DNA of 64,000 nucleotides from the NCBI GenBank assembly GCA_002049455.2, contig KV918948.1, forward strand, positions 1 to 64,000, read 5' to 3'. Positions 7,228-49,081 of the stretch are shown here, piece after piece. The notes under the pieces are model-generated. The model saw nothing but the letters and a program-made list of their open reading frames with translations, had not been told where the DNA came from and made no database searches. Position 1 is the stretch's first letter, and every line of letters starts with the position of its first letter. The position numbers and the translations under genes were made by a program. The DNA comes from Porphyra umbilicalis (Eukaryota; Rhodophyta; Bangiophyceae; Bangiales; Bangiaceae).

Positions 7228-8114
7228 ATGCTTCGCGCCGGGTTGGCCCGCGCCGCCGGCGTCCGCGCCGGCGCGCTCGGTGCACTGCGGCGGGGCTCCC
7301 CCGGCGGCGGCTCTGACGTCCTCCCCTCCCGCCAACCTGCTTCTTCCCCCCCCCGTCCTCCCCTTTTGCGGCCGTTGCAGCGTCTGCGTCGAGCAGCTCC
7401 GTCGCCGCCACCTCCCGCGCGCCGGCCGACACGGTCGTGGCGCCGCCGTCGCCCACCCCCAACCACCGATCTCTCCTCGCCCTGGATGAGAACACGATCG
7501 TGCCGTTTGTGCAGCCAAACGCGTACGTGGCGCCGTCGGCAAGCGTCATTGGCTCAGTCGTCATCAATGACCAGTCGGCGGTCATGAACGGGGCGGTTGT
7601 GCGCGGGGATCTGGCGTACCTCCGCATCGGCGCCTTTACGGTTATCGGTGACAATTGTGTGCTGTCGGCCGACGCGCCGGGGGGTGGGGGGGGCGTCGGC
7701 ACCGTGGACTCGTCGACGCCGCTGTCGGCGGCGGACGCGGTCGCGACTGGCCTCGCCATGGAGCCGGCGCTGTTTGTGGGCGACTATGTGGACGTGGCGC
7801 CCAACTGCGTGCTGACCGGCTGCACGCTGTCGGGGGAGAACGCCATTGGCGCCAACACGGTGATCGGGCCGGGCGCGGTCATTGGCCGCCAGTCGCTTGT
7901 CGAGCCGGGCAGCGTCGTGGAGGGCGGCACGCTCGTGCCCGAGGGGGAGGCCTGGGGGGGGGTACCGGCGGTCAAGCTGCGAGACCTCGACGGGGATGAG
8001 AAGGATGCGTTTGCCAAGAACGCGGCGGAGAATGCAAAGATGGCGGCAAGATACGCGTCCGAGTTCCTCCCGGTCGGAACCGTCTACTGGGAGGCGGAGC
8101 GGATGACTGCCTGA
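7228..8114 (+). CDS. Gamma-carbonic-anhydrase-like protein, probably mitochondrial
   Basis: The C-terminal 220 residues form a left-handed beta-helix of hexapeptide repeats: YVAPSASVIGSV, GAVVRGDL, IGANTVIGPGAVIG. The order and the RGD motif match gamma-carbonic anhydrases, which in plants and algae sit on the membrane arm of mitochondrial complex I. The RGD Arg and Asp are kept. The zinc histidines are not: the usual LVH position reads VLSA, and the VGHSAVLHGC-type block reads VAPNCVLTGC. It is therefore probably a structural, non-catalytic gamma-CAL. A glycine-rich insert lies after VLSA. The ATG at 7228 begins a basic, Ala/Arg-rich leader (MLRAGLARAAGVRAG) that suits a mitochondrial presequence. 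The frame changes between leader and core at or near the C9 run 7346-7354. A short intron is the alternative. Confidence 0.78.
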
Positions 8115-8662
8115 TGCATGGTGGGGGGTGAGGAGCGTCGAGGGCGGGGGGGGAGGGAACACGCCATGGGGACCATGTGGCCGTGGTCTAGAGGAACACG
8201 CGAGACGGTGGCGATCACCTTTGGTCGATGGGCAGGCTCGAGGCCGACCGCCTTTTTTTTGCCAGCCGCATGTGTAATGCCGCGGGGATGGGATGGTGAG
8301 GTTTTTGGACGACGTTTGATGCGTGGATACGCAGCTTGGGGTGCAAAGAACACGACCAGCACGACGGTAGCCGCTTTTCCTGGTGCGCTCGCGCTTGCTC
8401 GCACTCTCGCAGCGTTCTCTCTGGCGTTCTGGGTGCAGCGAGTGTTCCTTACTAACCAAACCGCCGATCAATTTCCTCTCCACTTGGTGTACTTTGTGTG
8501 GTCAAAGCGTGTGGCCACAGACCTCGGCCGCCAAGCACCGCACATTTTGCCGGCGACGTCCGTGGGTCTCTCGGTCACTGGGATCGCCGGCCAGCGTGCC
8601 CCACCCCCCCCCGCTTGCTGCCCCCCTCGCGGTGGTCGGCGCCCTTGGCAGACCCGCCCGTC
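8115..8662. other. Intergenic between two plus-strand genes
   Basis: No gene is recognised. The stretch must hold the 3' end of the gamma-CA-like gene and the promoter of the hydrolase gene. Open frames here lack any family signature. Confidence 0.5.
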
Positions 8663-10176
8663 ATGGCGATAGCCTTCCTCTCCCCGCCGGCGCTGTCGCC
8701 GTCACGGCGATGGGGCTGCCTCGGCCAAGCGGCGGCGCGCCGCAGCGCGAGCGCGCGGCCGCTGCCACCGGCCCTGCGATGGGGTCTGCCGGCGGCCGCC
8801 GCCGCGGCGCCCGGTCGTAATGCGCCCTTTTGCTGCCAGGCGGCGGCCACCCCACCCACCCCCCGCGCATTCTCTTCCCCTGTGGCCCCTTGCGATGCTG
8901 CCGCCACGGCCCCGCGAGCCCGCACCCCCCTCCCCTCCCCGCTGGTCGTACCGCCGCTCTTTCCGCTCGGCGACGCGCGGCCGCCGCCGTCAGCGCCGTC
9001 CCGCCACGTCAAGGTGCCGCTGCGTCGACGGGTCGGCAGCGTCGCCGCCGCCCTGCTGCTCCTCCTGCTGGCGCCCTCCCGGCGGGCGGTCGCGGCGGTG
9101 GCGGCGAGCGGCGCCACCGCCGCCCGCCCCGCCGTCAGCGTGGCGGTGGAGCCCCCCCCCCCACGCGCGTGGCGGTCAAGGGGGGCCGGCTGGCACCTTT
9201 GCGGACGACCGCCCTCCGTGTGGTGCCCGTCAACGGCGACGCGCCGGCAGTGGTGGCCGCCAAGGTCGCGGCACTCGCCGTCACGCTCTTTGTCTTGGCC
9301 TTTGCCCTCATGATTGTCGTCTTTTACGGCATCCAAGACCGGCTCGTGTACAAGCCGTCGCGCGTCTCGCGCGGCACGCCCGCTGACTTTGACATGCCCG
9401 ACTTTGACGACGTGTCCTTTTGCACAATGGACGGGGTGGAGATCAATGGCTGGTTCATCCGGCGGCCGGGCCAGACGTACCGCACCGCCCGCACGCTCGT
9501 CTACTTTCACGGCACGGACAAGAATGCGAGCTTCCGCCTCAAAAAGGCATTTGGCTTTTACGACAAGTGCGCGTGCAACGTGCTCCTGACCTCGTACCGG
9601 GGGTATGGCAGCTCGGGAGGCTCCCCCAATGAGAAGGGCATGTGCCGCGATGCGGATGGGGCGTTTGAGTACCTCCGCGCGCGGACGGACATTGACGGCG
9701 GGCGGGTGTGGGTGTTTGGCGAGAGCCTCGGCGGCGCCGTCTCCCTCCACTTTGTCAAGCGGTACGAGAAGTTTGTCAACGCGCTGGTGCTCGAAAACAC
9801 CTTTACGAGCCTCCTCGACATGATCAACCGGGAGTTCCCCTTCCTCGGCGTCTTCCGCTACCTCTCCCGCAACCAGTGGCGGAGTACGTCGCGCATCCGC
9901 TCCCTGACGCTCCCGATGCTCTTCCTCAGCGGCCAGCGCGACGCGTACATCCCACCAGACATGATGAAGCAGCTGCACACGCTCGCGGAAGCGTCCTCCT
10001 CCTACACGGAGTTTGTGCCCATCCGCGACGGTACGCACAGTCGGACGTGGACCAACAAGAACTACTTCACGTCGGTCGTCGGGTTTATGGAGAAGCTCGA
10101 GACGGAGGGGCTGCTCAAGGCGCTGCCGCTGCCGCGGGAGACGCTCACGGATGGCGGGGATATCCAGTTTGCATAG
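8663..10176 (+). CDS. Bem46/ABHD13-type alpha/beta hydrolase, membrane-anchored
   Basis: Serine hydrolase of the alpha/beta fold. One hydrophobic helix (about 9255-9325) is followed by RLVYKPSR, the usual entry to a Bem46/WAV2/ABHD13 domain. HGTDKNAS forms the oxyanion region, GESLGG the nucleophile elbow with the catalytic Ser, SGQRDAYIPP carries the acid, and DGTHSRTW the His. All three catalytic residues are present. Known members are integral membrane proteins linked to polarity and lipid or thioester hydrolysis; the substrate here is unknown. The ATG at 8663 opens an Ala/Arg/Ser-rich leader with a Leu-rich helix (AALLLLLLAP), possibly an organelle-targeting sequence. Leader and catalytic part are in different frames, and the switch falls at the C11 run 9152-9162. 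Confidence 0.82.
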
Positions 10177-10800: not shown

Positions 10801-11494
10801 TCAGCCCTCGGGCGCCGTCTGGCGGCCATCCGCACCACCCCCCGGCGACGACACCCCCCCTCGTGGTCGCGCGCCGCGCGCGCCCTCCGCCGCCGCACCC
10901 CCGCCGCCGCCGCCGCCGCCGTCGAGGCCGCCCGACAACGACTCGAGCCGCGCGGCGAGCGCCGCCTCCTCCACCGCCGCCGACACCAAATCCGACCCCC
11001 CCCCCCGTCGGCGCCGTCCAAGGACGGGCGCCACGCCGGCGCGGTCGCCGCCGCCGGGGCGCCCCCACCCCCACCGGCGGTCGGCGGGGTGGCCGCACCC
11101 CCAGGCCGGTGGGCGAGTGCCGGGACGGCCGTGCGTGCGCCGCCCGCCGCCACCGCCGCCGCCGCGGCGCTGGCCACAGGCCGGCGAGGCCCCCCCCCTC
11201 CCTCCCGCGCGGCGCGGCGCCCCCCCCCGCCGCAAACAGGTCGACGCTCAGATCCGACCGCAGCTCCGACGACAAGTCGCGGGCGGTGGCGAGGCCCCGC
11301 CGCCACCCCGCCGCAACGCCGCCGCCGCCGTCGGTGGCGGCGGCGGCGGCCGCCGCCGCCACCTGTGCCCGCCGCAGCGTGCGCGCCACGTGGCCGGCGG
11401 CGGCGCCCGCGGCGCGGGCGTAGACGGGGAGGCTCTTGGGGCCGACCGCGACGGTCGCGACCGCCGCAAAGAAGAGGAACTCTGTGGTTTCCAT
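10801..11494 (-). CDS. TatB-like single-pass protein, probably mitochondrial
   Basis: From the ATG at 11494 the protein starts METTEFLFFAAVATVAVGPK. This is a short N-terminal membrane helix ending in GPKSLP, then an amphipathic Ala/Arg helix (VYARAAGAAAGHVARTLRRA). That is the TatA/TatB/Hcf106 architecture, and it most resembles the mitochondrial TatB-like proteins of plants. Twin-arginine translocases export folded proteins. The middle is Gly/Ala/Pro-rich. Near the C-terminus a normal-looking helix, SDLVSAAVEEAALAARLESL, reads in another frame. To join these parts the frame must change at the C9 run 11220-11228 and again at the C11 run 10996-11006 (plus-strand bases). No TatC is seen here. 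The helix motif is short, so a hydrophobic protein of other origin is possible. Confidence 0.6.
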
Positions 11495-14402: not shown

Positions 14403-14774
14403 CGGAGGTGCGCGCGGACGCGGGGGCGGGGGGGGAGGCACGCGGCACGGGACGATGGGCGGTCGATGCAACGCCGCCGCGGCTGCTTGCATGTTGTCTT
14501 GCCCGTGGCGTGTTTCGACCGGGGTACTGTGAGCTCAGGCGCCGGTGTGTTGATGCGGGAGTCCTCCGAGGTGTGCCGTGTGCTTGTGCTGTTTATGCTG
14601 CCTTTCAACTCGAGTGCGTTGGGTTGATCGCCACAAGGGCGGTTTATCGTCTCGCGGTGATGTCCACGCCGACGCGCGTGTCCTCACGCCTGTGCCAGTC
14701 CCCCCTTCCCACGCACAGCTCTTCACCAACAAGGGGACGACATCGTGACCTCGCTAACGCGCGCTTCGCCGAGC
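14403..14774. other. Short convergent spacer
   Basis: Between the stops of the ankyrin gene (+) and the GPX-like gene (-). No gene or strong structure is seen. Confidence 0.5.
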
Positions 14775-15628
14775 TCATTCCTCCTCCTCTGGCCCCCAAT
14801 CGTCTTCGGCCCTGGTCATGTCCTCCTCCTCCACAGTCTCAATGACGACAGCCGGTAGCTCGGGCTCAGCCGCCTCGGTTGACTTGGCCTTCTTGGGCGT
14901 CAACAGGGGGGAGCCCGCCCCCTCCTCGCGCTCGACGAGCTCCTTAATCGCCGCCTCCACCGCCTCCTCCCCCTCGGTCAGCCCAAAGCGGGCGACGCAG
15001 ATGCCCTCCCTGCTAAACAGGAAGCTGCCGTGGAAGTTCCACACCACATCTGGGGGCAGCGGGAAGGCGTCGAGGCCCATCCCAAAGAGCGGGTTCTCCT
15101 CAATGTCCCCCTTGGACATCATGTGAAAGCGGACCCCGTACTTGGCCTTGACGTTGGCGGCAATGTCCTCATTGTCCCCCGGCTCCTTTTGGCCGTACCA
15201 GTTGCAGGGGAAGGCCAGGATCTCCAACCCGGCCTTGCCGTACGTGTCGTGCATCTGCACCATGTGCGCGTACTTGGCGTCCGACTCGTCGTCCTCCGAC
15301 GCCACGTTGATCACCCACAGGACTTTGCCCCGCAGGGTCGCCATATCCAGGAGGCCCCAGTGAATGTTCCGAAGCGGCGGCACCTCCCACGCCGTCGGGT
15401 ACAGTTCGGGGGAAGGCGGGAGGCCGCGCCGGAAGCGCGCCGTCGGCGCCGTCCGCACCGGCAGGGGGGGGGCGGGACGGCATCGCATGCGAGGTGGCGG
15501 CGGGCGGACGCGGGTGCAACCGCCACCCGCTGGCCAGTAAAGCGAGACAGCGTGGATGCAACACGACCAGGGGGTGGGGGCGTGGGGGCGTGCCTGGTCG
15601 GCACCGCCGCCGGCACAAAGGCCGCCAT
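14775..15628 (-). CDS. Glutathione-peroxidase-like protein lacking the catalytic Cys
   Basis: The thioredoxin-fold core follows the GPX family closely: LRGKVLWVINVAS, GLEILAFPCNWYG, EPGDNEDI, YGVRFHMMSKGDI and WNFHGSFLFSREG. GPXs reduce peroxides through a Cys or Sec in NVAS-x-C-G. Here that site reads NVASEDDE, with no Cys and no in-frame TGA for Sec. The tetrad Gln (CNQF) is Trp (CNWY). The Trp and Asn of WNF remain, and so does the Cys of FPCN. The protein is thus probably not a classical peroxidase. The ATG at 15628 opens an Ala/Pro/Arg/Ser leader (MAAFVPAAVPTRHAP) that suits a plastid or secretory presequence. It joins the core only through a frame change at the G9 run 15464-15472. The C-terminal 45 residues are acidic and dispensable-looking. 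Confidence 0.83.
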
Positions 15629-16705: not shown

Positions 16706-18251
16706 CGCGTGCCACACCAGTGGGCCCCCAGCGCCAGTCCGCCACAGGAAGAGGAAGATCGCGTGGTGGTCCGTCCATATCAACCAGTAGTCACCTCTGG
16801 AAGAGGTGATCATATGATCCCATTCCTGTGATCATTTGATCCCCGAGGCCGGTAGAATAGACACTAGAAGCTTCGCTAATGACTTCTCGTGGCAGCGCGC
16901 TGCTAGCAGCCTCTCCTTGTGGCCCTCTTGGACACGCCCCTAAGGCGCGATATCGCGTGGGTCCAAGCACAGCCCGCGGCGAGTCGCTCGTGTGCAGGGG
17001 CTCTCTACCACCCCCTCCTCTCCCCCGCAGGGATTCAGTCAGAAGGGGATAGACAGCGAGGTGGGTGTGACCGCACGACGGGTCGTGGCGGCCTGCTACG
17101 CCACACCGCCTCGACCATGCACTGTTTCTGGGGACCACGCAACCGCTTCTGTCGGCATGCCCCCCGCACCCCGCTTGCTCCGTGCTTGGTCGCGACTGTC
17201 CCAACCTCAGCGGCCTGACACCCCCCCCCCCAATCCAGTGCGATCGCACGCATGTTCTATTCTGTCGTGTTGATCGGCTGGCGACCACGCCGCACATCGA
17301 AGAAAGGCGGAACAATACTGCCGGGCGGGTGGCTGTCGACTGACGCCGCCCGGTCGCGCACGATGCAAGTGCGGCAGAGCAGGGGGAGATTAGAAGGTTG
17401 TCGACCGCAGTAGTCGAACGACGTCGGCGCCGTCAAATCGTTGCTGGTGTGCACCGCCATGGCCTCAGCTGCCTGTCCAGGGAGAGTCCCTTGCCGGCAC
17501 ACGAATCGCATTGGGAATCCTACCGGACACCACCTCGGTGCCCCGCCTCTTCCGGCTGTAGTGGAAGAAGCGACGGTTTTGAGCCACCGACCAACCGCAA
17601 CGTCCCGTGTGCGGGCAGCGACCGGCGGCTGCCTTCCTCCTTTCCGGATGCTAGTACCGCCATTGCCTGCGTAAGCTCTTGAGGGCTGGTGGGGCTTTCG
17701 ACGACACTGGCAATCGCTCCGCCACCGTCTTTGTTGCTGTATCATGCATGGCACGTGCCGCCGACCAGAGTGGGTCGCGCCGCGTACTGCGACTGTTGGA
17801 GTGGCCGGCGGCAGCGACGGACACAACGACGTGTGCACGGACCAAGACCGTTGTCGCCAGCCATGCGGATGCGAACCCCACGGGCAGAGCGTTGAGTGCC
17901 CTCATGCCGATGGACTGGAAGCTCAGCACGGGCGGCCGGCGGCGTTTGCATGGCGTGCGAGCGTTCGCCGCAGCGACGGCTGTGAAGTCATTGCGGACAC
18001 GGGCACGCCCGGCCCCGTGGCTATATATACTGCAATGGGGAATGTCTTCTGAGTACGCAGATCGATATGGGCATGTCCAGTCATCGGTGCGGTGCGTGGA
18101 GGGGAGGTGTCCACACCCTAGGGCTTCCTTGGGTTACTGGTGAGCGGCGTCTCGCGCGGCGGTTGTGAAGGCGGTGGTCGCCCGCTCCCCCCGTCTGCAG
18201 AGGTTGCCGCCTCACCACCTTCCCGCCGCCGCTTTGAGCCTTACCTTGGCC
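16706..18251. other. Intergenic; shared 20-mer, no recognised gene
   Basis: Open frames on both strands (for example 17257-17838 minus and 17679-18143 plus) lack family signatures. At 16863-16882 a 20-mer, ACTAGAAGCTTCGCTAATGA, recurs inverted at 63775-63794. Just before it TAGAATAGACACTA recurs at about 21064. These look like remnants of one repeat family. The last few hundred bases should contain the zinc-finger gene promoter. Confidence 0.45.
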
Positions 18252-22046: not shown

Positions 22047-24895
22047 TCACAGGAAGTTCTCCTCACGGAACGCAAACCGCACGTTGGAGCCGTACGAGTC
22101 GGCAAAGCGCCCCTTGCCGCTCCGCTGGTAGGCCGTCCGCGCCAGCTTCCACGTCCCGTCGCCCGCCTCCACGTCCGCCTCGGCCTCGCCCGACCCGTCG
22201 AGGCCAATGGCGCCACGGCGGTAGCCGCGCGCGAGACTCAACGCCGTCGCCCGCGCAATGCCCTCTTGGATCGACTTGGACATGGGGTGCGGCCCGCAAA
22301 AGAAGACGCCGACGACGGTGCCCGAGCGGGAGCGCTCCGTGATGCCCGCCATGAGCGCGCCCCAGTCGGGGCGCTGGTACGTCGTCTTGATCGGCACCTC
22401 GTCATAGTCGAGCATCCACGGCTCCACTTCGGGCGCCGCGCGGGTGATGTGGCGGTGGAGGCGCACCGCGCCCGAGCCGGCGCACGGGAGCAGCTCCTCC
22501 ACCAGCCACCCGTCGTCGGCCTGCTTGGGCGCCGTCCACACAAAATCGAGGCTCCGCAGCGAGTGCGACGCTTGCACGTTTTGGGCGAGCGCCAGGCGGC
22601 TGCCGACGACGCGGGTGAGGCGGTAGAGCATGGCTAGGAGCAGCAACGGCCACAGCACCAGCAGGTTAACGGCGGCAAACCAGGTCGCGCCCGAGCCGAC
22701 GCCGCCCAACGCGAGGGCGTCGAGCACCAAGCCCGCCACCAGCAGCGGCAGCAGGAAGAGGGTGTCGACGAGGGAGCCCCGCTGGCGGAAAAAGACGGGC
22801 ACGCCGAGGATGGACATTTCACACGCGAGGGAGACGACCAGCGGCGCCGTGGCGGCGGCGGCGAGCGCCAAATCCGCCGCGACCAACCCCGTGCGGGTGA
22901 ACATGGCCAGCCCCGCCGTCGACGGGGAAAAGCCGCGCATGATGGCGGCGAGGGCGACAATGGTGAAGCGGGCGAGGATCGCCCACAGCAGCGCCAAGTT
23001 GACCGACACGGAGTGGAGGATCTGCAGCGTCGCCACCCGCTTGGTGCGCGCGCGCACAACGTCGGCGGGGAGGGTGCCGCGGCGGTCGCCGCCGGCGGTA
23101 AGTCCCCCAAAAAAGGCGCCGAGGATGGACGTGCGGCGGCCGCCACCGCCGCCGCCGTTGCGCGCCTTGACGACCTCTGCGTCCGCGTCAAAGTTGAGGC
23201 CGATGAGCTGCTGGCCGGCCGTCGAGTTGATAAACGCCGACTGGCGAAGGACGCGGCCGATGCTGTCGGCGCTGCTCGCCAAGTCGGCCTCCTCGTCATC
23301 GTCGAGGCGGCTGCTATCATCGTCATCCTCGTCGTCGTCGTCGTCAAGCGCCCCGCCGCCGACGCCGTCGCCGTCGTCCATGCCCGGCACGGTGACGCCC
23401 TCTGACGTCCCCGGCAGCGTCGACGGGGGCGGGAAGGCGCGGTCGTTGCCCTCCTCGTCGGCAATCGAGTAGAGGCGGTCGAGCTCCGCGACGCGCCGCT
23501 CGAGCACCTCCGAGGTGAAGCTCGACGGCGCGCCCGGCGGCTGCAGCGCCGCCGCCGCCTCCGCGTCGCGCCCGGCGGGCACGCGGGAGCCCGTCGACGA
23601 CAGGTCGTCGGCGACGCTGCCGCCCCCAAAGTCCGACGCCGACGGCGCGCGGGGGGACAGCCGCGCCCGCGCCTGCACCGTCGCCGCCGACGGGCTGTGG
23701 TGCATCCGCCGGTCGGGGGCGGCCGCCGCCGCCGCCGCCGTCGGCGAATGCGGCGACGCGTACGACGGCGGCGGGGCGTCGCGGAAGGAGGGCGGGCGGG
23801 CGGTGAGCCAGTTGTGTGCCGACTTGACGACGCCGCAGAAGGGCGTCGAGCCGACGCCGCCGCCGATGAGCACCACATTTTCAAACTGGCCGACGTGCTG
23901 CGCCGGCGAGCCGTACGGCCCCCGCACGAGCACCTCCACGCGCGTCGCGCCCGTCGACGCAAACATCTTGTGCAGCTGCCCCGTCCAGTCGCCCGACTTT
24001 TTAATGTAAAAGACGAGCTCCGGCTCGTGCGGCGCCGACGCAATGGTGAACGGGTGCCACTGGATGGAGGAGATGGCCGGCACCTTGACCTCCGCGTACT
24101 GCCCCGGCCCGTACGTAAAGGTGCGGGGGAGGCGGAGGCAGAGCATGGCGTCGCCCTTGAGGGCGCCCACGTCGCGCGACACGGACATGCGCACCTCCTT
24201 TTGCTGCGCCCGCCGCATCAGCCGGTCAATGATGTAGACGGCCATGGGCCCCGCCACCCACCGGTACGTGCGGTACACGCCATAGTGGAGGCCGTGGATG
24301 AGCAGCAGGATAAAGCCGAGCGTCGCGCACACCGCGTGGGAGTACCAAAACAGCTCGTAGCGCTTGGAGCGGTTGACCCGCAGCGACGTGCCGTAGAGGA
24401 CGCCAAAGAGGGCGACGAGCATGCTCCCCGTGATGAAGAGCTGCGTGAAGCCATTGTAGCCGGGGCCCCACGGCTTGGACACCACATACACGGGCAGGTG
24501 AAAGGCGACGTGCGTGAGCGACGCGGCGAGAAAGACGCGCCCGACGAGCATGTGGAAGGCGGGCATGGCCTTGTCAAACGGGATGACCATGTTCATCGGC
24601 GTGTTGCGGAGCCACGACATGAGCTTGCGCGCCGAGATGAGGAGGATAAAGGCGGCGTTAAAGTTGACGAGGTTCCCCGCCCCCCGCGCCACGGGCGTCA
24701 AGTTGCGGCGGTAGTGGCCCACCGGCCACAGCCGCCGCTCGGGCGTCGCCGCAAAGAAGAAGAGGATGACATTGGCAACCGCGTACAGGCCGAGGAAGGT
24801 GAGCGCAAAGCCGTTGGCGGAGAGGTACGACTCGATTTTGGAGACCCAGCTCTTGGTCTTTGGGGGGGGGCCCCCGCGCCGCCGCCGCCGCCCAT
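22047..24895 (-). CDS. NADPH oxidase / respiratory-burst oxidase, red-algal type
   Basis: Transfers electrons from NADPH through FAD and two haems across the membrane to make superoxide. The ATG at 24895 precedes a first helix (FALTFLGLYAVANVILFFF). Bis-haem helices follow: a His pair 14 apart in FHMLVGRVFLAASLTH and another in HAVCATLGFILLLIHG. The FAD site is HPFTIASAP. The NADPH site is split between LIGGGVGSTPF and FFCGPHPMSKSIQ, and the protein ends FREENFL as NOX proteins do. Between the two NADPH halves sits an insert of about 400 residues (plus-strand 22550-23790) with an acidic Asp/Ser stretch and four hydrophobic helices. There are no EF hands. The ATG and first helix are linked to the rest only if the G9 run at 24862-24870 is one base longer. 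Confidence 0.9.
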
Positions 24896-26266: not shown

Positions 26267-27873
26267 ATCGTCTACTTGGGACTTTTTCCCATCGAAGGCC
26301 CTTTTCCGATGACATCGCGACCCGACAGGAACTGGTCATCGGAAGGGGGTTTCGATGGACATAGATGAGACCTTCGATGAGAACCGTTTCGATGAGAGTG
26401 GTGTCTTCGGCCGATGAGACTGAGAATCCGTGCCGACACATTTACAAGAATTACATAAATCTGCGTGCAGGTATTGCCTGACATCTCATCATATCGGGAC
26501 CTTCGACACGGGCTAGGTCAACATCGCTTTGTCGAGGTCCGGGCACAGCTTCGTGAGGCTGCGTGCGTGAAATGCACATGCACGAGGCTTCGGCCACTTC
26601 GCGTGAGAGGCGGTCTTTCGACATCTTGACTGCACAAACGATGGATTTTTTGGACGCTCGCAGTCCTCCGGGTTGTGCTTCGCGGTGCTCCGCGTGCGGC
26701 GACATCGCGGGTTCTTATGCTTTCCTAGACTAAGTCAAATGCATTGGCGGCACCCGTCCTCGTGAAGAAGATGGTCTCGACGTCGGCGGAACGGATGTCT
26801 CTGAGATTACTGGCGTGGCAAATACATATAAATGGCATACTGAACGGACAGTATCCCTGAGATGCATACACAAGATTATCCAGTTGTCCAATCAGATGGG
26901 TCCCTGCTCGGGCTCTCAAACTGAAGTCACATCGGTTCGATGGGCTCGATGAGAGTCTCGATGACCGTCATCGACCCATACTTCGATGGGTCGATGGCGC
27001 ATCGAAGCCTCGATGAGGCTTCGATGGAGAAAAAGACTCATGTAGACGATCGTCTACATGGGACTTTTTCTCCATCGAAGCCGTAGACGATCGTCTACAT
27101 GGGACTTTTTCTCCATCGAAGCCTCATCGAGGCTTCGATGCGCCATCGACCCATCGAAGTATGGGTCGATGACGGTCATCGAGACTCTCATCGAGCCCAT
27201 CGAACCGATGTGACTTCAGTTTGAGAGCCCGAGCAGGGACCCATCTGATTGGACAACTGGATAATCTTGTGTATGCATCTCAGGGATACTGTCCGTTCAG
27301 TATGCCATTTATATGTATTTGCCACGCCAGTAATCTCAGAGACATCCGTTCCGCCGACGTCGAGACCATCTTCTTCACGAGGACGGGTGCCGCCAATGCA
27401 TTTGACTTAGTCTAGGAAAGCATAAGAACCCGCGATGTCGCCGCACGCGGAGCACCGCGAAGCACAACCCGGAGGACTGCGAGCGTCCAAAAAATCCATC
27501 GTTTGTGCAGTCAAGATGTCGAAAGACCGCCTCTCACGCGAAGTGGCCGAAGCCTCGTGCATGTGCATTTCACGCACGCAGCCTCACGAAGCTGTGCCCG
27601 GACCTCGACAAAGCGATGTTGACCTAGCCCGTGTCGAAGGTCCCGATATGATGAGATGTCAGGCAATACCTGCACGCAGATTTATGTAATTCTTGTAAAT
27701 GTGTCGGCACGGATTCTCAGTCTCATCGGCCGAAGACACCACTCTCATCGAAACGGTTCTCATCGAAGGTCTCATCTATGTCCATCGAAACCCCCTTCCG
27801 ATGACCAGTTCCTGTCGGGTCGCGATGTCATCGGAAAAGGGCCTTCGATGGGAAAAAGTCCCAAGTAGACGAT
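26267..27873. mobile_element. 1,607-bp near-perfect palindromic (foldback) element
   Basis: The segment equals its own reverse complement about a centre at 27070. Arms 26267-27057 and 27083-27873 (791 bp each) are separated by about 25 bp. All arm stretches I compared agree, apart from two mismatched bases near the centre. Symmetry stops exactly at ATCGTCTAC on both sides, and the flanks are unrelated. The outer end motif CGTCTAC-x-TGGGACTTTTTC is found again twice at the centre. Each arm therefore looks like a complete terminal-inverted-repeat element, and the whole like two copies head to head. The inner 200 bp of each arm are packed with CGATG/CATCG words, possibly transposase binding sites. 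Short frames in the arms (64-84 codons) are mirrored but unrecognised. Confidence 0.9.
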
Positions 27874-28579
27874 GTCAGACGCTGGCGGGGCACCACGACG
27901 CGCGAGATCAGGGGGGGGGAGAAATCTGGCGCGGCGGTGGCGGCGCGGGGGGGACGGGGCGCCCGGGCGCGCGCCCGCGGGAGCGCGGCGCCGGCCACGC
28001 CCCCCCCGCCGTGGGGGGCGCGCCGTCCAGACACGGGGCAAGCGCCGCGAGGGGCGGCCACGTCTGGCGCGACGCGGACCGAGGCGGGGGGGCTCACGAG
28101 AGGACGCCACGTACCCCCCGCGCGGGGGATCAGATCCACGGAGGGGACGAGACGGATGGATGACAAGATCCAATGGGCGCTGCGCGCAGTATCCGTCTGT
28201 CACCACTTCTTGACACTTGCACCAGCTCTTCGCAAATCGGGCTTGGGTGGCAAGTCCACAGTGTTTACACATGAAATCGGGTTCCTGGGGATCCTCCGGA
28301 ACCGCCTACGGCGCAGTTACCTTTATTTTTTTTAAATAAAAAAAGCATATCAGCGCGGTCTAAGTCACACCACTGGACTCGTGAGCTCATCAGCTCTCCA
28401 ACAATCCCTTGTGCGCCTCAAGAGGAGCACTCCTGGACGAGAAAAGCGTGATACCCTGGAAAAGAGCAAGAAAAAAGGACATGGCCGGATGGGTGCAATT
28501 CCGCGTCCACAGAGCCCTTTCAGTGATTTCCGAGCAGAGCGTCTGGCTCCCGCCTGCGAGGCACATTCAGAAAATTCCA
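27874..28579. other. Intergenic between two mobile elements
   Basis: GC-rich to about 28140, then AT-richer with an A/T tract (TTTTTTTTAAATAAAAAAAG) near 28323-28346. No gene is recognised. Confidence 0.45.
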
Positions 28580-29295
28580 ATTCCAGGCACGTGCGTGCAA
28601 TACCCTGGCCTTCAGGGCGGTGGCGCGCTCGGCGACGCATTGACACCGGGCACGCCGGCCGGTTCTAGGCCACGGGAGCGCACGGGGACACGTACAGCCA
28701 CGTTGCCGTGGTGGGGGGGGCGTCGGGCGAGGAAAGGGGTGCCGCCTCTGCCACCGCAGCGGCGGCGGCCCGCCGGCGTCGCGCGGCGCCCACGGGCGAG
28801 GCCGTCACTCCGCCGCGCAGCGCACCTGCGCACGGCGGGCAGGGCGGCCGACACGGCGCACGGGCGGGCGGGTGGGACTGATCGCCGCGCTACAAGGCGC
28901 CTGTAACCTCGCCGCTAGATGGCGTCAGAAACCGCCGACGCGCCGCCGCAACAGAAGACGGCGCGCAGACGCGATCACCCGCGGGTCATCGTGGGCGCGT
29001 CAAGCCCCGGATGTCGCTGCGCGCGGTCACCGCACGCAACTCGGGGCGGTGGAGGGGGCACGGGGGCAGGCTCTTTCCGGTCCCAGTGATGCCTGTGGAA
29101 GGACAGTCCTTCTCAGCCACGTAACTCCATTTGTTTTTAGCGTCATCGCGACCCTTCCAACACTGACAGGCCCTCAGATCCCTGAGGACACGAATGCAGG
29201 CTGCCACCTCTGAAACGAAGAGCAAGTCCCTTGATCTAAGTATATGTGTGCATCACTACACTTTGAGAGCACCCTGTCCTAAAGGCCAGGGAATT
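28580..29295 (+). mobile_element. 716-bp repeat element, copy 1
   Basis: Begins ATTCCAGGCACGTGCGTGCA and ends in CCTAAAGGCCAGGGAATT. A second copy of the same length lies inverted at 54829-55544, matching over nearly the whole length with scattered substitutions. The left end contains CCCTGGCCTTCAGGG and the right end the related palindrome CCCTGTCCTAAAGGCCAGGG, so the termini are inverted relatives. No intact coding frame is shared by both copies. It is probably a non-autonomous DNA transposon. Confidence 0.8.
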
Positions 29296-35624: not shown

Positions 35625-36132
35625 TCACTGGCGAAAGCGGCGCTTGAACCGGGACGCAACGAGCATGTCGGTGGCACGCCCCCCCCCCTCCCGCCGCCTC
35701 TCCCCCCCTCCCCCCCCCCCCCCCCCCCCCGCGCGCGCAACGCCGCCACCGCCGCCACGGTGGCGGCAGCCACCCCCCCCCCCCCCCGTCGCCACCTCCT
35801 CCACCCCCCCCGCCGGCAACGCCGCGTCGGGATCGTACGGCACGCGCGCCGCGCGCGCCGCGCGCACGTCGGCGGGGAGCTCGTAGAGCGCCGCCTCCTC
35901 CGCCGCCGCCGCCGCGCGCGCGGCGCGCGCGGCCGCCACCGCCGGCGCCGTTGCGTCGGCGGCAAGGTCCGCGGGCATCCGCGCCGCAATGTACGACTCG
36001 AGGGCGGCCGACGTCACGTCGCCGGCCGCTTCGGCGGCAAAGGCGCGGGAGAGGCCGCCGGCGACGCGGGTGGCAACGCCGCCGCCAGTGGGGGGGGGGG
36101 CGGGGGGTGCGCACCCCCGCCGCCACCGCTGC

Positions 36133-36196
<64 letters not shown>

Positions 36197-36612
36197 GCCG
36201 CTCGACGTGGAAGGTAAGGAAGGGGGGGGGAAACCCGCGCCACCATCCGTGGCGACGGGGAGGGCGGCGCCCGCGGCGCCGACGAGCGTGCCGCCGCGGG
36301 CAACGGCGACGCCGCGCGCCGGTGCTGGCCGCCGCATGGATTGGGCGGTGCGGAGGAGCGCGAGGCGGTCTTGGAGGGAGACGGGGGGGGGGGGGGGGGC
36401 ACCGCCTCGGCGGCGGCGGCGGCGGGGGGGGGGTCGGGGGGGACGCACTGGCCGGCGGCGGCGGGGGTGGGGCGCCGGGCCCCACGTCGCCCGCGGGTGC
36501 CTCCGCCCCTTGACCAGAGGCCACTGCCGCGGGGGTGGGTGGCGCCGCCGCAGTAGCGGCCGCTTCTCCGCCGCTACCGCCGCCATCAGCGGCGGTGGCG
36601 GCCGCCACCGCC

Positions 36613-36645
<33 letters not shown>

Positions 36646-38233: not shown

Positions 38234-40416
38234 ATGCGCCGCCGAAGATGGCCCGGCCGCGGCTGCCGCCTGGCTGTCCGGTGGCGGCTGGTGCCGCTGC
38301 TCATGCTGGCATGGGCGCTGAGCGACACGCCGCTACGGCCGCCACGGCGATGCCGACCTCGGGGAGAGGGCGGTTTGTGTTTTCGTGTCGGGGGCGGTGT
38401 GGTCCGCCCAGGCGAAGGCAACCATTGTGCGGGCGGTGATGGCAGAGGTGGCCGCGCGGTGTGGTTTGATGGCGGCTGCCAGGACACGGCTGGCGGCGGC
38501 CGGGAACCAGACGCGCTGCGGGAGCGCTGGCGGTGGCGACCGCTGATGGGGATGGCGGGGGCGCAGAGCCTCCGCCCGACCGCCGAGAACACCTTTGAGG
38601 AGGTCAGCCTGTTTGGCGCCCCGTCTTACGACGAGGCGTCGGGGATTGCCATTGACGCCGCCGGCGACTTTTACGTGACTGGCAAAACCAAGCCCCGGGC
38701 GGGCACGGACAGCGGCACCATTGCGCAGGCGGTCAGCAGCCTCGTCGTCGTCGGCAGCCCAGTGGCGCAGGGCAAGAATGATGTGTGGGCGGCCAAAATC
38801 TCTGCGGCTGCCGAGGTTCGCTGGCTCCGCACGTGGGGCTCCTCGGCAGACGACATCCCCATGGCCATTGTCGTGGACGGGGCCGGCTCGGTGTACGTGG
38901 GCGGCCACACGCGCGGGTACTTGCCGACGCAGGCCGGGCGCAACTTCGGGCAGCTCGACTTTTTCTTGTCCCGCTTGTCGACGCAGACGGGGCAGCTGGC
39001 GTGGACGGTGCAGAATGGGACCATTGGGCGGGACGCCATCTCTGACCTTGTCGCCGTCAATGGGGCCATTGTCGCGACGGGCCAGGTCGGCGCCAAGTTC
39101 ATCACGACGCCCTCGGACGGCAGCGACGTGGTCGTGCTCTCCTACGACCCGAGCGGGCGGCTCAACTGGGCGGTGCAGGAGAGCGTCGGCCTATACTCCA
39201 TCGGCGCCTCCATCGCCGCGTCGCCCGTCGACGGCTCCCTGTACGTTGGCGTCACGGCGTACCGGTCGGCGGCGGGCGACCAGGAGACCAGCGACTACGC
39301 CGTGATCCGCATTGCCGGCGCGACCGGGCGGGTGTTGTGGACAAAGCAGACCACGTCCTTCTCCCAGGTGTTTGTCCAGTCGATTACCGTCGACTCACAG
39401 GGGGCGGCGTACGTGGCCGCGTCGAGCTGGAAGCACGTCTACCAAAACTTCAACTTCTTCCTCCGCAAGTACTCGGCGGCGGGGGACGAGGTGTGGGAGC
39501 GGGACATCACCACGGAGGGCTCGCACGCCGACTACCCGACGGTGGTGCTCCTCTCCTCAGACGAGCGGGAGGTGTACGTGACGGGCTACACGTCTGGCAC
39601 TCTAAAGGGTGCGCTCAGCAACGGCGGAGTCGTCAGCTCTGGGCGGGACGAGCCCGTCGGCCAATTCACGTCGGTGCTCCTCCGCTACGCGACCAACAAT
39701 GGCATCCCCAACGAGCTCTTCCAGACGCTGGCCACGAGCGCCAACGAGTGGATCCAAGTGCGTGCCGCCACCATTGACGCGGACGACAACATTGCGGTGG
39801 CGGGCTACCGCACGACGGCCGCCGCGGACGTGAACGTGATGCTCGGCTCCTTCAAGTTCCGCCCCTCCGAGGCGGTGGTCGATGGGGAGGGCATTGGCAA
39901 TGGGGGCGTCGGCGGCGACGGCTCCCCCGGCGGTGGGGGGGGGGCGCGGGCGGCGGCGACGACGGCGGCGGCGGCGGCGGCGGCGGCACGACCGCGGAGG
40001 GTGGCGGCATCCCCATCAGCGTTGTGGCCGGCGCCGCCGCGGGCGGCCTCGCGCTCATCGTTGTGGTGCTCGTCGGCGTTGCCTACACCCTCCGCACACA
40101 GTCGCGCAAGCGGCGGGCGACGCGCGACTCGGCCGCCGCCGCCGCCGCGGCGGGGCGGCTCTACGGCGCGCCGCCCGTGCCGGGGGCGCGCCCGGCGGCG
40201 GGGGCGGCCGGCGGCTGGCGGCCGCCGCCGCCCGCCGTGCGCCTCCCCCCGTCCGCGGTCGGCGCGGGGGCGGTGCTGCCGCCGGGCGCGCGGCTGCCGG
40301 GCGCGCCGCCCTCCCCACAGGGCCGCCCGCCGGCGGCGCGGCCAGCGTCGCCGCCGGGGGGGGCGCCGCCACGGCCGGCGCACCCGCTGGCGGGCCGGCA
40401 AGCGGGGCCCGCTTGA
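38234..40416 (+). CDS. SBBP-repeat beta-propeller surface protein with one transmembrane helix
   Basis: The ATG at 38234 opens a basic stretch and a hydrophobic core (RLVPLLMLAWALSDT) that suits a signal peptide; an ATG at 38546 is an alternative. About 430 residues of SBBP-type propeller blades follow: ASGIAIDAAGDFYVTGKT, DIPMAIVVDGAGSVYVGGHT, VQSITVDSQGAAYVAASS, REVYVTGYTSGTLKGA, RAATIDADDNIAVAGYR. A Gly/Ala linker leads to SVVAGAAAGGLALIVVVLVG, a membrane helix, then a basic RTQSRKRR stop-transfer and a Pro/Ala-rich cytoplasmic tail. The helix and tail lie in a different frame from the propeller, switching at the G10 run 39935-39944. SBBP repeats are commonest in bacteria, so old transfer is possible. 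The ligand is unknown. Confidence 0.8.
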
Positions 40417-40873: not shown

Positions 40874-42852
40874 TCAAATGATGCCGTGCAGCTTGATGGC
40901 CTCCTTGGCGGCGGCCACGACCGGCCCCTGAAAGTCGACGACCTCCACCGCCATGTCGGGAAAGTTGCGGCGGAGGACCTCCCGCAACAGGGGCAGCCGC
41001 GCCTTGTCGGGCGCGTACGTGCCGCTGCCATTGTCCATCACCAGCGTCGGCGGGGGGGGGGCGCCGCCGCCCGCCGGCCCCCCCCCCCCCCCCCCCCCTG
41101 CCGGGACGTGCGGATGTGGAATTCCCCCGAGTAGACCACCTCCGCCGCCGCATTCGAGTGCACCGCGTGCTTGCTCCGCACGTCGGCCCAAAAGCTGGCG
41201 CCCGTTTCCGAAAAGCGGAGGCGGGCGCCGCCCGCGCGGTCCCCCGCGAGCAGCACGTAGGTGAAGAAGCGGGATTTGCCGCCGCGCACCCCGTGGTGGG
41301 TGAGCGCGAAAAATTCGGCGGCGGACGCGGCCGCGCCGGTGAGGCCCGCAAAGGCGCGGCGGAGGGACGAGACGAGGCCGTCGTCGAGGGCGAGGCCGCC
41401 CCCACACAACCGCGCGTGCTGCGCGCGGATGAGGCTCCGCGCCATGAGCGCCTGCGGGCCCGCCGCGAAAATTTGCTGCGCCGGCCGGTACGACCGGTTC
41501 CACGCGCACCGCGCGTCGCCAAAGACGGACGCCACCGAGTGCACTTGGAGGGTGTAGGTGGGGAAGGACGCCGCCACCTTGGTCAACAGCGACGCGTTGT
41601 ACACTTGGAAGGGGATGGGGATGGGGAGGCTCGGGGGGTCGCCCCCGGGGGGGGCGCCCGCCCCCCCCCCCGCCCCGCCGGCCGGCGGCGGCCCAATGGC
41701 AATGGCCACCTCCCCGCTGCGCTCGGGCGTGAGCGCGTGCCACGCGGCGGTGTAGCCGGCGGCGAGGAGCGCGTCGGAGAGCAGCGGCGTGTCCGCGTGG
41801 TGCGCCGTAAACGCTTCGGCGAAAAAGTGGGGGCGGTGCTCGTCGACGCCCCCCGAGGACGCGGGGGGGGGCTTGGTCGGCACCCCGTGCACGCGGCCGC
41901 CCGAGGCGGAGCGCGCCGACCGGAGGGGGCCGCCCTCCTCTTTGGGCACCCCGAGGAGGAGGTGGTCCGACGCCAGCCCCAACACCTTGCCCGTGACGCC
42001 CGCGAGGGAGGCGGAGAGGCCCCGCCGTGACGCCTTGGCGGCGGGCGCCCCGGCGGGCAGCTGGGAAGACGAGGCGTCCGCGGCACAGGGCGTCGCCCGC
42101 GTTGACGCGCCGCTCAACGCCGCGCCCCAGATCGCGCTCGGCGCGTGTGGCGGCGGCGGGTAGGTGGCGGCGTGGTGCGCGGCGGGGGGGGCGCCGCCAA
42201 ACCACCCGCCTCCAACGTTTGGGGGGGCTTGGGGGGCGGGGGGTACACGGGCCGCCCGTACGCGTCGAGCGCCGCGGCGCCAGACGGCGGATGCGTGCCC
42301 AGTGGCGGGTGCGGCGGCGGCTGCCGGCCATACGCGTCGAGCGCGCCGGGACCGGGCGGCGGATAGGCGCCCGGCGTTGGGTACAGCGGCAGTGCCCGCC
42401 CGTACGCATCTGGCGGCGGCGGCGGCGGCGGCTGCGCGTGCCCCGCCCCCGTGTGCCCCGTGTGCCCCCCCCCCCCCCCCCACCGGGGGCCCCGCCGCCG
42501 CCCGGCCGGTCCGCCCCCCCCCCCCCCCCCACGACACCAGGGGCAGGGGGATGAGTTTGGCGACGGGGATGGCCACCTCCCCCAGCAGCTCATCCCGCTT
42601 GCCAATGTCCTCGTCGTACACCTGCACGTGGAGGGTGTCGGCCTCCCCCGCGGTGAGCGTAAAGGAAAAGTCGTGGTTCCACAACGGATTCCGCGTGTTG
42701 GTCGCCACCCGCGTGCGCTGCTTTTGGCCGCCCTCGGCCAACCACACCTCCGCGTACGGGTCCGACTCGCCCGTCGTCCAGTCGGCGCGCCGGAGGTGAC
42801 GGCCACGCAACAAGCGTAGGCGCAGGGGGAACTGCCGCAGCGGCTGCGTCAT
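40874..42852 (-). CDS. C2-domain protein with Pro/Tyr repeats and a conserved C-terminal domain
   Basis: The ATG at 42852 starts an N-terminal C2 domain: LRLRLLRGRHL, DWTTGESDPYAEVWL, TNTRNPLWNHDFSF, VQVYDEDIGKRDELLGEV. It has the Asp residues of a calcium-dependent membrane-binding C2. A Pro/Tyr-rich linker has three DAYGR units in another frame (about 42240-42440). A globular part follows (HFFAEAFTAHHADTPLLSDA, EFFALTHHGVRGGKSRFFTY). The last 55 residues, in a third frame, contain VMDNGSGTYAPDK and RRNFPDMAVEVVDFQ, a C-terminal domain I recall from fungal C2 proteins. Frame changes coincide with poly-C runs near 42471-42482 and 42522-42531, and with the C21/G10 cluster 41052-41098. A role in membrane or lipid binding is likely; the rest is unknown. 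Confidence 0.75.
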
Positions 42853-45394
42853 GCTGCTGCCGGGGGGGGGGGGGGGCGCCGGCGGGCCAGAGGGAGGGGC
42901 TTGGGGGAAAGGGGGGGGGGTACACACCGGCAGCCGTGGAAGGAGCCCAATCGCGGTGCACTCGTCCGCCGCTCGACGACAATGAGGTGTGGAGGAAGGC
43001 GCCGCCTCAAGTCAAACGATGCGGCTTCCCCCCGTCGTTGAAAAAGAATCCAGCAGGCGGGGGCGACAATGAGGGAGGTTGCGGAGTAGCAAACCGGCTG
43101 GTACAGCCCAACACCAACCGGGTGGACGCGAGGCCCACGCGCCAAACGACCGCGGGAGGGTGGCAAGGGACGGGGTGGATGCAACCAACGGCCGTGCCCC
43201 GCGCGGGCCAAGCCCCACGGCACCCACACGCGAGCGGGACGACGGGATGGCAGGCGGCAGAGAGGACGCGTTGCGGACACAGGGAGGCCAGCAAGGGCAC
43301 GGCTGGACGCCCTCCGCCGCCAGTACCGCCAACCAGACAGCGTGTTGAGGGCGGTGGCGAGCGACAGACCCGGCAGGCGGCGCTTCTGCAGCGCACGAGG
43401 CGCGCACGTCCAGCGCACAGGAGCTCCCTCAAAGCATGAAACGGCCCCAGGCCATCACGCGCGTACGTATGTCCGAGGTGCACTGTCACGCCCCGTCAAC
43501 GGCTTCTGGCGCCAACCGCCCCGACTTAAGATACATACAGCAATGCAGCCCGACGCATCAGAGATGGAGTACAGAAATTAAGACACGTTCGCGAATATAC
43601 CCTGGCCCGAACTGGCTTGGCTATTTGACACGCAAACAGTAAATACACTGGGCCCTTGTCGAAGAAGCACACCTGCCACCTGGTCGAGGACACCAGATAA
43701 ATGAGCCATCCGGCCGCCACTCCCGCAGTATGTCAATCAGCCACCATCCTCGCCGCCCCACGCATCGCGCCCAGTGGCGCAGTCACACCCGTCACGTCGC
43801 GCGCCTCGCAACGTCCTGCTTTCGAGCGTTCGACTGCATAGAAACGCCCTCAGAGACATCTGAGACCGCCGCTCTGAAAGTACCATCGAGATTACTCGAT
43901 GCCACACCGTAGGCGGGCCCCGTAGACCGTGCACCCCGCCTCACGACCCTTTCCATCCAGCTTCTTGCGCTATGAACACTGTCACGAACCATACGCGCGA
44001 GCAAGACCTCTCCATGGCGTCCAACTTGGTACGAGGCATCAAACCACGTGTACCAACGTTCCTAGTGCAAAGATATGATGACGAAGCTTTCGAGGGCTGC
44101 AGAGGGAGCGAAAGGATGTGTTTTTCGGTCTCAACCAGTACTCCCGCAACGTGCACTAGCTCTCAAAGAAATTAAAAACGGTCTGCACCACGTTGGTAGA
44201 TACCCTGACCTAAAGGTCAGGGAACTGTACGAATTTCTAGCGTGGCAAAGGTAAGCACAAAGGGGCCGAACGACACGTCGGCAAGCTGCCGGGTCGCTGA
44301 CGGTATGTTGCGACGGGCTGCTGGCATCCCTCCAGCGCCATCATGCCTATAATGGGAAGAAGACGTTGACGTCCCCCATGGACGCAGCAACTCACCAAAA
44401 CGGTAGCACGCCGATCCATGCATTGCTTTCTACTGAAAAGCTTTGTAGCCGGGCCGGGCACCAACCCGGCTGCTCGACTTCGCTCTCCGTGGACCACAGC
44501 ACCGTGTCGCGATGACAGCAGCAGCGGCCACTGCCTTACTGCCACGAAAGACTGGGGGAGCCTGTTGACAAACAAGGGTGGAGGCCGATTTGGAACTCTT
44601 TTTCAACTGCTGGAGTGCGGGATTTTTGGGAGAACGGCTGTAATGCATTGAAAAAGAGGAAGAAAATCATACGAGCGGGGTGTGCGTCGTTGTGTCACTC
44701 TCATGGGAGAAACAAACAGAAGAGGTGCTGTTTGTTTTTTCCATGTGCCGTTTCAGGTATGAGCGCGTCACAATCATAGCTGTTCGTAATTTTAAAAATC
44801 CAAATGACACATCATTCGACGCACCCCCGGTACACTGCTGGACCGACGTAGAGTGACTGCCAGGGCGTGCCAAGGTCGCCGCAGCGACGCCGCGGTGTTA
44901 CCTCTCAGGAGGGACGACGTGTGAGTGTCGGCTCGAGCTGGTAAGGGCTTGCAGTCTCCTCATCGACGTGTGTGCCACCGGCTCTTTGTGACAGAGGACC
45001 ACAGAGGCTGACGCTGTGTGACCGAGGCGCAGCTCGTTCAAACACTGTGGACGAGGAGCCAATCCGGAGCTCATGCAACGAGAAGCCGTCCGTCTAGACG
45101 GACGGACGGATGGTTTTGTCAGCCCATATGAAAACGAGACGTCTCGTTTTCATATGGGCTGACAAAACCGTCCATTAATGCACTGCAGCACCTCGACCAC
45201 GGCTACCGATGGGGCAGCGCGTACAATCCACGCTGCATATGCTTTGTCCTTCTCCAATGTGTTGAGTCCCTCGTTGGTGCGGAGTCCCGGCGCTCAAGCA
45301 CACGCTGCATGCGGCATGCCGCAGCACGACATAGAAAGAAATCAATTACATGCTACATGCCCACCGAACGCTTCCGTCCGAGACTCAGCACCAC
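42853..45394. other. Long gene-poor stretch with repeats
   Basis: No gene is recognised. GC falls after about 43500. It contains the palindromic motif TACCCTGACCTAAAGGTCAG at about 44202-44223, related to termini at 29271 and 54829, and the 58-bp palindrome at 45112-45169. Frames such as 44237-44575 minus have no family signature. Confidence 0.5.
45112..45169. repeat. 58-bp perfect palindrome without spacer
   Basis: GGTTTTGTCAGCCCATATGA continues to GAGAC|GTCTC at 45140/45141 and then mirrors exactly. The pairing stops at 45111/45170. Such a structure is a perfect snap-back hairpin and probably a tiny foldback element or a fused pair of inverted ends. Confidence 0.92.
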
Positions 45395-46978: not shown

Positions 46979-47469
46979 GCCGCCGCTTGCAACGGCACGG
47001 GCGGCGTCGGTCGCGACGGGGAGCGGCAAAGGCAGACGTCGGCCGCCGCACCGTCAGTGTCGCGTGCGGCACCGCGGCACCACCGCCGCGATCGGATGTC
47101 GCGCAAGGCGGAGCGGTGCCGTAGCCGCCCGCCCACCTGCCGAGCAGGTGCCTGTACCGCGGTGGCTGGAAAGTCCAACCCCCAATGGCGGCAGCTCGAT
47201 GCGCCCACAACTCTTTTGGGGAAAAGTTCGAATTGCCGAAACCCCGTCCATTTGTAGTGGATCCCTGCGGACAAATTGGGCCTGGCCCGGAGGGTTCACG
47301 TCGGCTCCGACGCTGCCTCGTCGCGACTTTGACGCCACCGCCGTCGTCCCTACCAGCTGTGACGCGTCGCCTGGCGACTGACGCACCGACCGCATCGGCC
47401 ATAGCGCGGCGTGCTTCCCCCGTCTGTTCACGGTCTTCCTCGACTGGTCGTCTCTCTTATTCGTTAACA
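46979..47469. promoter_or_regulatory. Divergent promoter region, V-ATPase C / DPH1
   Basis: 491 bp between two start codons on opposite strands. No clear TATA box is seen. It is GC-rich towards the V-ATPase side and T/C-rich just before the DPH1 ATG. The role is inferred from position only. Confidence 0.5.
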
Positions 47470-47704
47470 ATGCCTCCAGTTCGAGTCGGCCGCTATGCTG
47501 GCTCGCGTGGCCGCGGCGGGCGGGCGGCCGACGCCTGCGGCTGCCCGTGTGGCGCAGCCGCCGCCGCCGCCGCCGCCACCTACCCCGCTTCCGCCGACGC
47601 TGGGTGTGAATCCTCTGCGCCTGTCAGAGTGAGCTCTGCTGGCTACGGCTGTTGTCCGCCGCCTGCAGCCGGCATGACTGGGGCCGCCCCAGCGGCCTCC
47701 CCCG

Positions 47705-47736
<32 letters not shown>

Positions 47737-49081
47737 GCCGACACCGCCACCGCCGTCGCCACTCCGCCCACCGACCTGGTGCCGTCGGCAGCCGCAACAA
47801 CGTCGTCTACCCCCCCCCCCCCCCCCCCACCCTACGCGCCGGCGGCGTACCGGCCGACATTGCCGATGACCCCGACTTGGCGGTGGCCATGGAGGCACTC
47901 CCCGCCAACTACTCGTTTGAGGTGCCCAAAACGGTGTGGCGCATCCGCCGCGCCGGCGCGTCGGTCGTTGCCCTCCAAATGCCCGAAGGCCTCCTCCGCT
48001 ACGCCGGCGTCCTCGGCGACATCCTCCGCGCGCACGCGGGCGTCGCGGACGTCCTCGTCCTCGGCGACGTCACCTACGGCGCGTGCTGCGTCGACGACCT
48101 CACCGCCGCCTCGCTCGGCGCCGACTTTTTGGTGCACTATGGCCACTCGTGCCTCGTGCCCGTCACCGCGTGCGTCGTGCCCGCGCTGTACGTGTTTGTG
48201 CACATTGCGTTTGACGCGTCGCACCTGCTCGCATGCCTCCGCGACACCTTTCCGCCGACGGCGCGGCTGGCGCTAACCGCCACCATCCAGTTTGTCGACA
48301 CGTTACACGCGGTCGGCCCCGCGCTGCGGGCCGCCTTCCCCGCGTCCCCGCCGCTGACGCCGCAGGCCAAGCCGCTGTCGCCCGGGGAGCTCCTCGGCTG
48401 CACCGCCCCGACGCTCGACGGCGACGCCGTCGACGCACTCGTGTACGTCGGCGACGGGCGGTTCCACTTGGAGGCGGCCATGATTGCCAACCCGGGCCTC
48501 CGCGCCCTCCGCTACGACCCGTACGCCAAAACGTGGACGGAGGAGGGGTACGACCACGGCCGCATGCGCACGGCACGCCGCCGCGCGATTGCCGACGCGG
48601 CGCCCGCCGACCGCTGGGGCGTGGTGCTCGGCACCCTCGGGCGGCAGGGCTCCCCCGCCATCCTCCGTCGGCTGACCGACGCGCTCGCCGCCGCCGGGCG
48701 GGCGGCGGTGGTGGTGCTCCTCGCGGAGCTGTCGTTGCCCAAACTCCGCCGCCTCACCGCCGGCGGCGGCGTGCAAGCGTGGGTGCAAGTCGCCTGCCCG
48801 CGCCTGTCGATCGACTGGGGGGAGGGCTTTGCGTCGTTGGGCGTGCCCCTGCTGACGCCCTACGAGGCGTACGTGGCGCTCGGCGTGGTGCCGTGGCGGG
48901 ACGTGTACCCAATGGACTACTACGCCAAGGGGGGGGGGTGTGGGCCAACTACCACGTCGACCCGGCGGTGGCGGCGGCGGAGGAGGCGGCGCGGGCGGCG
49001 CGTCGCGCCGCGCGGGCGGCGGCGCGCAAGGGGCGGGGGGGGGCGGGGGGGGGGGGGGGCGCCGCAGCTGACGGTGTCTGA
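47470..49081 (+). CDS. DPH1: Diphthamide biosynthesis protein DPH1
   Basis: DPH1 with DPH2 is the radical-SAM-like iron-sulfur enzyme that adds the 3-amino-3-carboxypropyl group to a histidine of elongation factor 2, the first step of diphthamide synthesis. The core is plain: VPKTVWRIRRAGASVVALQM, VTYGACCVDDL, DFLVHYGHSCLVP, LRYDPYAKTWTEE, LGTLGRQGSP and VACPRLSIDWGEGF. The three cluster Cys (ACCVDD, HSCL, ACPRL) are present. The ATG at 47470 starts a long Ala/Pro/Thr-rich leader not found in most DPH1 proteins. The frame changes twice: at the C19 run 47810-47828 between leader and core, and at the G10 run 48929-48938, after which YYAKGGG continues as VWANYHVDPA in another frame, then an Ala/Arg tail. 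Confidence 0.92.

Follow-up and report, generated by a model that had tools for sequence, protein, structure and literature searches.

Reading frames change at long runs of G or C in several genes of a 64,000-nucleotide stretch of the Porphyra umbilicalis genome (contig KV918948.1, positions 1 to 64,000, contig C188 in our numbering; hereafter the window). Judged from the assembled sequence, these changes are very probably consensus errors, and the feature is most likely an ordinary artefact, not unusual biology. A near-uniform loss of one base, the concentration of the changes mainly at long runs, the sparing of the testable short runs and one break without any run near a contig end together make under-counting of run length by the consensus the best explanation. 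Below, runs are denoted by base and length (C11, G9) and a frame change that is one base short is denoted −1.

The assembly comprises 83,822,817 bases in 665 contigs. The window has a GC content of 66.8%, and a sample of contig C1 (positions 200001–400000) one of 62.5%. Runs of at least eight G or C occur 75 times in the window, whereas 12 first-order simulations average 7.4, and runs of at least ten occur 42 times versus 0.8. For the C1 sample the corresponding values are 84 versus 13.8 and 25 versus 0.8. A chance origin of the runs is ruled out by this excess. Run density climbs with local GC content, from 2.6 to 21.7 per 10 kb, and the window is denser in runs than the C1 sample.

A first-pass annotation, made from the letters of the window, had reported frame switches at such runs in almost every conserved gene, with homology continuing across the joints. 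The runs do lie at the positions it gave. Reading by eye on the gene strand, with that claim known beforehand and hence not blind, we find ten net junctions in the window, every one of them −1 (7346, 9152, 11190/11220, 10996, 15464, 24862, 36090/36222, 39935, 41052/41078 and 48929). The junctions, and the in-frame features of the same genes, are as follows.

7346–7354, plus strand: C9 in a gamma-CA-like gene, leading from a targeting-like N-terminus (ATG at 7228; weak upstream coding signal) to the body ORF at 7317–8111; −1, weak.
7686–7962, plus strand: G8 (7686) and G9 (7954) of the gamma-CA-like gene; both in frame.
9152–9162, plus strand: C11 in an alpha/beta-hydrolase gene, upstream of the Hydrolase_4 match at 9493–9813; −1, coding signal on both sides.
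10996–11228, minus strand: C11 (10996) and C9 (11190/11220) in a presumably TatB/Hcf106-like gene; two −1 steps by eye, no Pfam match.
15464–15472, minus strand: G9 in a GPX-like gene, leading from a transit-peptide-like N-terminus to the GPX body; −1, weak.
24862–24870, minus strand: G9 in an NADPH-oxidase gene, just past the start codon (ACCATGG context) and before the body; −1, weak.
36090–36230, minus strand: G11 and G9 in a presumably C9orf78-like gene; read by eye the net change is −1, but with short flanks its sign is ambiguous; no Pfam match.
39935–39944, plus strand: G10 joining the SBBP ORF to a Gly-rich linker and a hydrophobic helix; −1.
41052–41098, minus strand: G10 and C21 in a C2-domain gene; net −1, coding signal on both sides.
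41647–41871, minus strand: G8 (41647), C11 (41661) and G9 (41863) of the C2-domain gene; in frame.
47979–48908, plus strand: Diphthamide_syn domain (DPH1); complete, in one frame.
48929–48938, plus strand: G10 directly after the DPH1 domain; −1, coding signal on both sides.

Coding signal on both flanks of the frame change is found at 9152, 39935, 41052–41098 and 48929, and at these four places the annotated switches stand. The remaining six junctions (7346, 15464, 24862, 36090–36230, 11228–11190 and 11006–10996) are weaker, being based on start codons and targeting-like N-termini or on resemblance to known proteins; for the N-terminal ones the evidence is the start codon and the composition, not homology. 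A GGC repeat lies within the cluster at 36090, where a frame call on short flanks favours another sign. The junction at 48929 lies outside the testable clusters of the formal test described below; the apparent continuity of YPMDYYAK and WANYH across it supports the frame change. The junction counts leave out C19 at 47810, G17 at 36383, C17 at 42465 and 42514, and G15 at 42862.

The conserved domains of the window are found next to these runs, not across them. The Pfam matches to Hexapep, Hydrolase_4, GSHPx, Ferric_reduct, FAD_binding_8, SBBP, C2 and Diphthamide_syn each lie in one frame, several being partial. None of the frame-shifting runs falls within the best stretches shown; they are located in N-terminal extensions, linkers and tails. 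Thus, the Hexapep match is confined to the body of the gamma-CA-like gene, the single-frame GSHPx match starts at profile position 14, and the NADPH-oxidase matches all lie in one ORF downstream of the G9 at 24862. The Diphthamide_syn match spans profile positions 1–301 of 302, and comparison with PDB structures supports the DPH1 domain in one frame, the alignments stopping before the G10 at 48929. A profile search of the whole genome with PF01866 returned this locus only; no second (DPH2-like) match was found at E ≤ 0.001. No Pfam match was found for the TatB-like and C9orf78-like pieces. The claim that almost every conserved gene is hit is therefore not confirmed, nor is continuing homology at most of the joints; the extent of conserved sequence affected was overstated, and the uniform sign and the in-frame runs (7686, 7954, 41647, 41661 and 41863) had been left out. 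The same annotation had described the ankyrin, V-ATPase C, zinc-finger and large membrane-protein genes as intact, with few runs. Runs of at least eight are absent from the ankyrin ORF, the V-ATPase C ORF and the ORF of 1,094 codons, and the zinc-finger ORF has two.

For a formal test, a codon model was trained on the window and contig C1, with window ORFs among the seeds, so that it is not independent. For every run cluster in 17 sequences the frame was called on flanks of 150 nt, clusters at sequence ends being skipped. Six of these sequences (L042–L047) were chosen because of a frame break; the window, the C1 sample, eight chaperonin loci and one run locus constitute the unselected set. With runs of at least eight joined within 100 nt, 14 of the 152 clusters in the 17 sequences were testable and 138 were not. 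The frame was retained at 3/3 clusters of length 8 and 2/2 of length 9, and changed at 3/5 of length 10–12 and 2/4 of length 13 or more, every change being one base short. In the unselected set this setting gave the same frame at 4/4 clusters of 8–9 and a change at 3/5 of at least 10. Joining runs of at least six within 40 nt gave changes at 0/13 clusters of 6–7, 0/4 of 8–9 and 3/4 of at least 10, i.e. frame change rises with run length, albeit in small numbers. All three changes in the unselected set lie within the window, and all are −1. Among L042–L047 two of four clusters of at least 10 changed frame, each being one base short; of four clusters of 6–7 two changed, one in each direction. 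Random positions away from runs (window and C1) changed in 81 of 3740 cases, divided 44 to 37 between the two signs, as against the 3/5 unselected clusters of at least 10; the random positions overlap, and Fisher p-values (1e-4 for 3/5) are therefore too small. These data support the first-pass preference for consensus error at homopolymers, with changes at 3/4 of the clusters of at least 10 versus 0/17 at 6–9, and the sign nearly always −1.

Outside the window, conserved domains split across frames were sought genome-wide. PF00118 gave 13 matches from nine genes, five of them single-frame and four split by 154–224 nt; one lies in a plastid-like contig (C665, 185,000 bases, 32% GC), where a groEL-type chaperonin was found within the 4.5 kb read. 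Two ORFs of this contig, which by eye look like ycf65 and hisS, would presumably indicate a plastid of red-algal type. PF00069 gave at least 144 matches, with 125 of the 277 candidates scored. Kinase domains are often split near profile position 125, apparently a recurrent intron position, and one kinase match (contig C2, 229646–230554) contains an in-frame TAG. Kinesin motor matches occur on at least eight contigs.

Across four families, 51 pairs of consecutive partial matches were found, 35 of them with intervals of 100–330 nt. The frame differs in 27 of the 51, five at intervals of at most 94 nt (four of these one base short) and 22 at longer ones; the signs of the latter are divided 12 to 10, as introns would give, and five of the 22 intervals were read. 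Most split conserved domains outside the window are thus likely to be split by introns, with a few that break directly at G tracts. The five short-interval places and contig C137 provided seven junctions, six of them one base short, including three of the four at runs of at least 10. On contig C275, two pieces of a P5C dehydrogenase, searched apart, match 3v9j_A at 352–419 and 425–461; the 14 nt between them lie at the end of a G12 (49688–49699), and the five intervening residues need 15 nt (−1). On contig C339, pieces of an Aurora-like kinase match 3w2c_A at 56–96 and 106–153, with 29 nt, including a G10 at 17877–17886, for nine residues (−1), and a G9 some 120 nt further on is in frame. Neither place has room for an intron. 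On contig C375 a −1 change falls at a tract of G17, G10, G9 and G13. On sequence comparison, the homology that is continuous across the G10 (C339) and the G12 (C275) shows that real genes are cut at homopolymers. Alignment to homologues across the joints, proposed with the first-pass annotation, is continuous at these two places outside the window, and at DPH1 ends short of the run. Overall, its observation is partly confirmed and its interpretation supported.

A number of results weigh against consensus error as the cause. The ten window junctions were read in knowledge of the claim, and the unselected sample is small, its three changes all lying outside C1 and the chaperonin loci, which together hold one testable cluster of at least 10, in frame. 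Further runs of at least 10 that remain in frame are C11 at 41661, C20/C21 in L029, C9 with C14 in L043 and G11 in L044. Four of the ten by-eye junctions have a run length of 9, and the testable 9-runs at 7954 and 41863 are formally in frame; by eye, the net change over the C9orf78-like tract at 35679–35811 (runs of 8, 15, 21 and 10) is zero. Looser settings add changes of the opposite sign (two at 10–12, one at 8). In the kinesin gene L043 (contig C375, 37871 and 38008) a 6-run is associated with −1 and a 7-run with +1, and a second −1 step on this contig extends across 221 nt with a G14/G9 cluster that is formally in frame. On contig C137 the −1 change extends across 146 nt with G8 as the longest run; both this interval and the second C375 step are possibly introns. 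No run accompanies the −1 change on contig C165, which lies about 250 nt short of an end of the contig, and a kinase on contig C3 shows the opposite sign at a G10. Finally, −1 slippage predicts the same sign.

Consensus error is still the explanation that we favour, the deletion bias being apparent in the formal unselected changes (3/3), the by-eye window junctions (10/10) and the other genes (6/7). A GC-rich genome would possess numerous genuine long runs of G and C, which only seldom fall inside conserved domains, and the consensus would under-count runs of about nine or more by one base, often enough to shift the downstream codons. The underlying genes are probably intact, and accurate reads would be expected to carry the extra base. 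The assembly itself would then have been built from long reads without full correction. Related assemblies employed PacBio reads with Quiver, according to a section of PMC7423979, and Arrow and Pilon, according to a section of PMC8752119. One part of a profile of long-read assemblies describes deletion errors as highly associated with homopolymers and puts them down to conservative length estimates (PMC12007338), and homopolymer-length errors are given as the commonest residual errors in the Polypolish abstract (PMC8812927).

The best surviving alternative, unlikely as it is, holds that the runs are hypermutable and that the strain carries real indels, be they somatic, allelic or in recent pseudogenes. 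G/C runs are abundant, and near-identical or similar copies of repeats differ by one base at C7 and C9 runs. Two inverted copies on contig C1 differ by two substitutions and two gaps, each gap being one C in a C7 run; these differences fit consensus error but could also be real mutations, and the repeat copies overall do not separate error from mutation. Conversely, slippage mutation is expected to give gains as well as losses, whereas all ten window junctions correspond to one loss, and DPH1, as the only PF01866 match in the genome, would have a damaged C-terminus. A duplicated kinase gene (contigs C33 and C323, 93.9% identical over 3.1 kb) has no long run within.

Very improbable is the proposal that the run lengths are true and that full-length proteins arise in many genes by −1 ribosomal frameshifting or by an RNA polymerase that adds one base. 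The nearly constant −1 sign, the homopolymers at most sites and the conserved sequence on both sides of the junctions are all in its favour. Still, two events would be required in the TatB-like gene, other runs of at least 10 are in frame, and the mechanism would have to operate in many genes. A slippery run is also not present at every shift, with none on contig C165, where the shift lies near the contig end, and at most G8 on C137; both of these shifts may have other causes. If the run lengths were true, the use of frameshifting in gene expression would be extraordinarily widespread here.

That the frame changes are short introns containing the runs is hardly credible, and as a general cause it is ruled out by the direct joints at C275 (14 nt), C339 (29 nt), DPH1 and SBBP, even if most split domains have intron-sized intervals (35/51), the four chaperonin intervals read have GT..AG ends, and the C137 and second C375 intervals could be introns.

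Under consensus error, gene models in this assembly would end early or fall into pieces at long G/C runs, the parts lost being mostly targeting peptides, linkers and tails, and calls of localisation, membrane topology and gene loss should be made with care.

Repeats were noted as well. The C1 inverted duplicate (297896–299573 and 300678–302353) is 1.7 kb long and 99.8% identical. The window contains a 1.6 kb near-perfect inverted repeat (26267–27873; 98.6% for the entire repeat and 99.7% for its arms, across 791 bases), which is either a palindrome of natural origin or a fold-back introduced by the assembly, and a dispersed repeat of about 715 bases (28579–29293 and 54829–55544, 88% alike) with more copies on C1. 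Self-matches reveal a 6.6 kb tandem array at C1 321992–328635, whose repeat unit is roughly 116 bases long.

In comparison with known systems, programmed −1 frameshifting and transcriptional slippage share with the present case the sign and mostly homopolymeric sites, but here many unrelated genes are involved and runs of similar length are also in frame. The genome resembles the nuclear genomes of other Bangiales (Pyropia, Porphyra, Bangia) in its high GC content (62.5% and 66.8% here) and its plastid-like contig of 32% GC, as would fit a bangiophyte red alga; a part of PMC7423979 gives a GC content of 64–68% for Bangiales genomes, with codons ending in G or C enriched. The closest parallel is homopolymer consensus error in long-read assemblies, which likewise is seen at homopolymers, is biased towards deletions and splits genes, as described in part of PMC12007338; unlike there, the tracts here are G/C runs of 9–21 in a GC-rich eukaryote.

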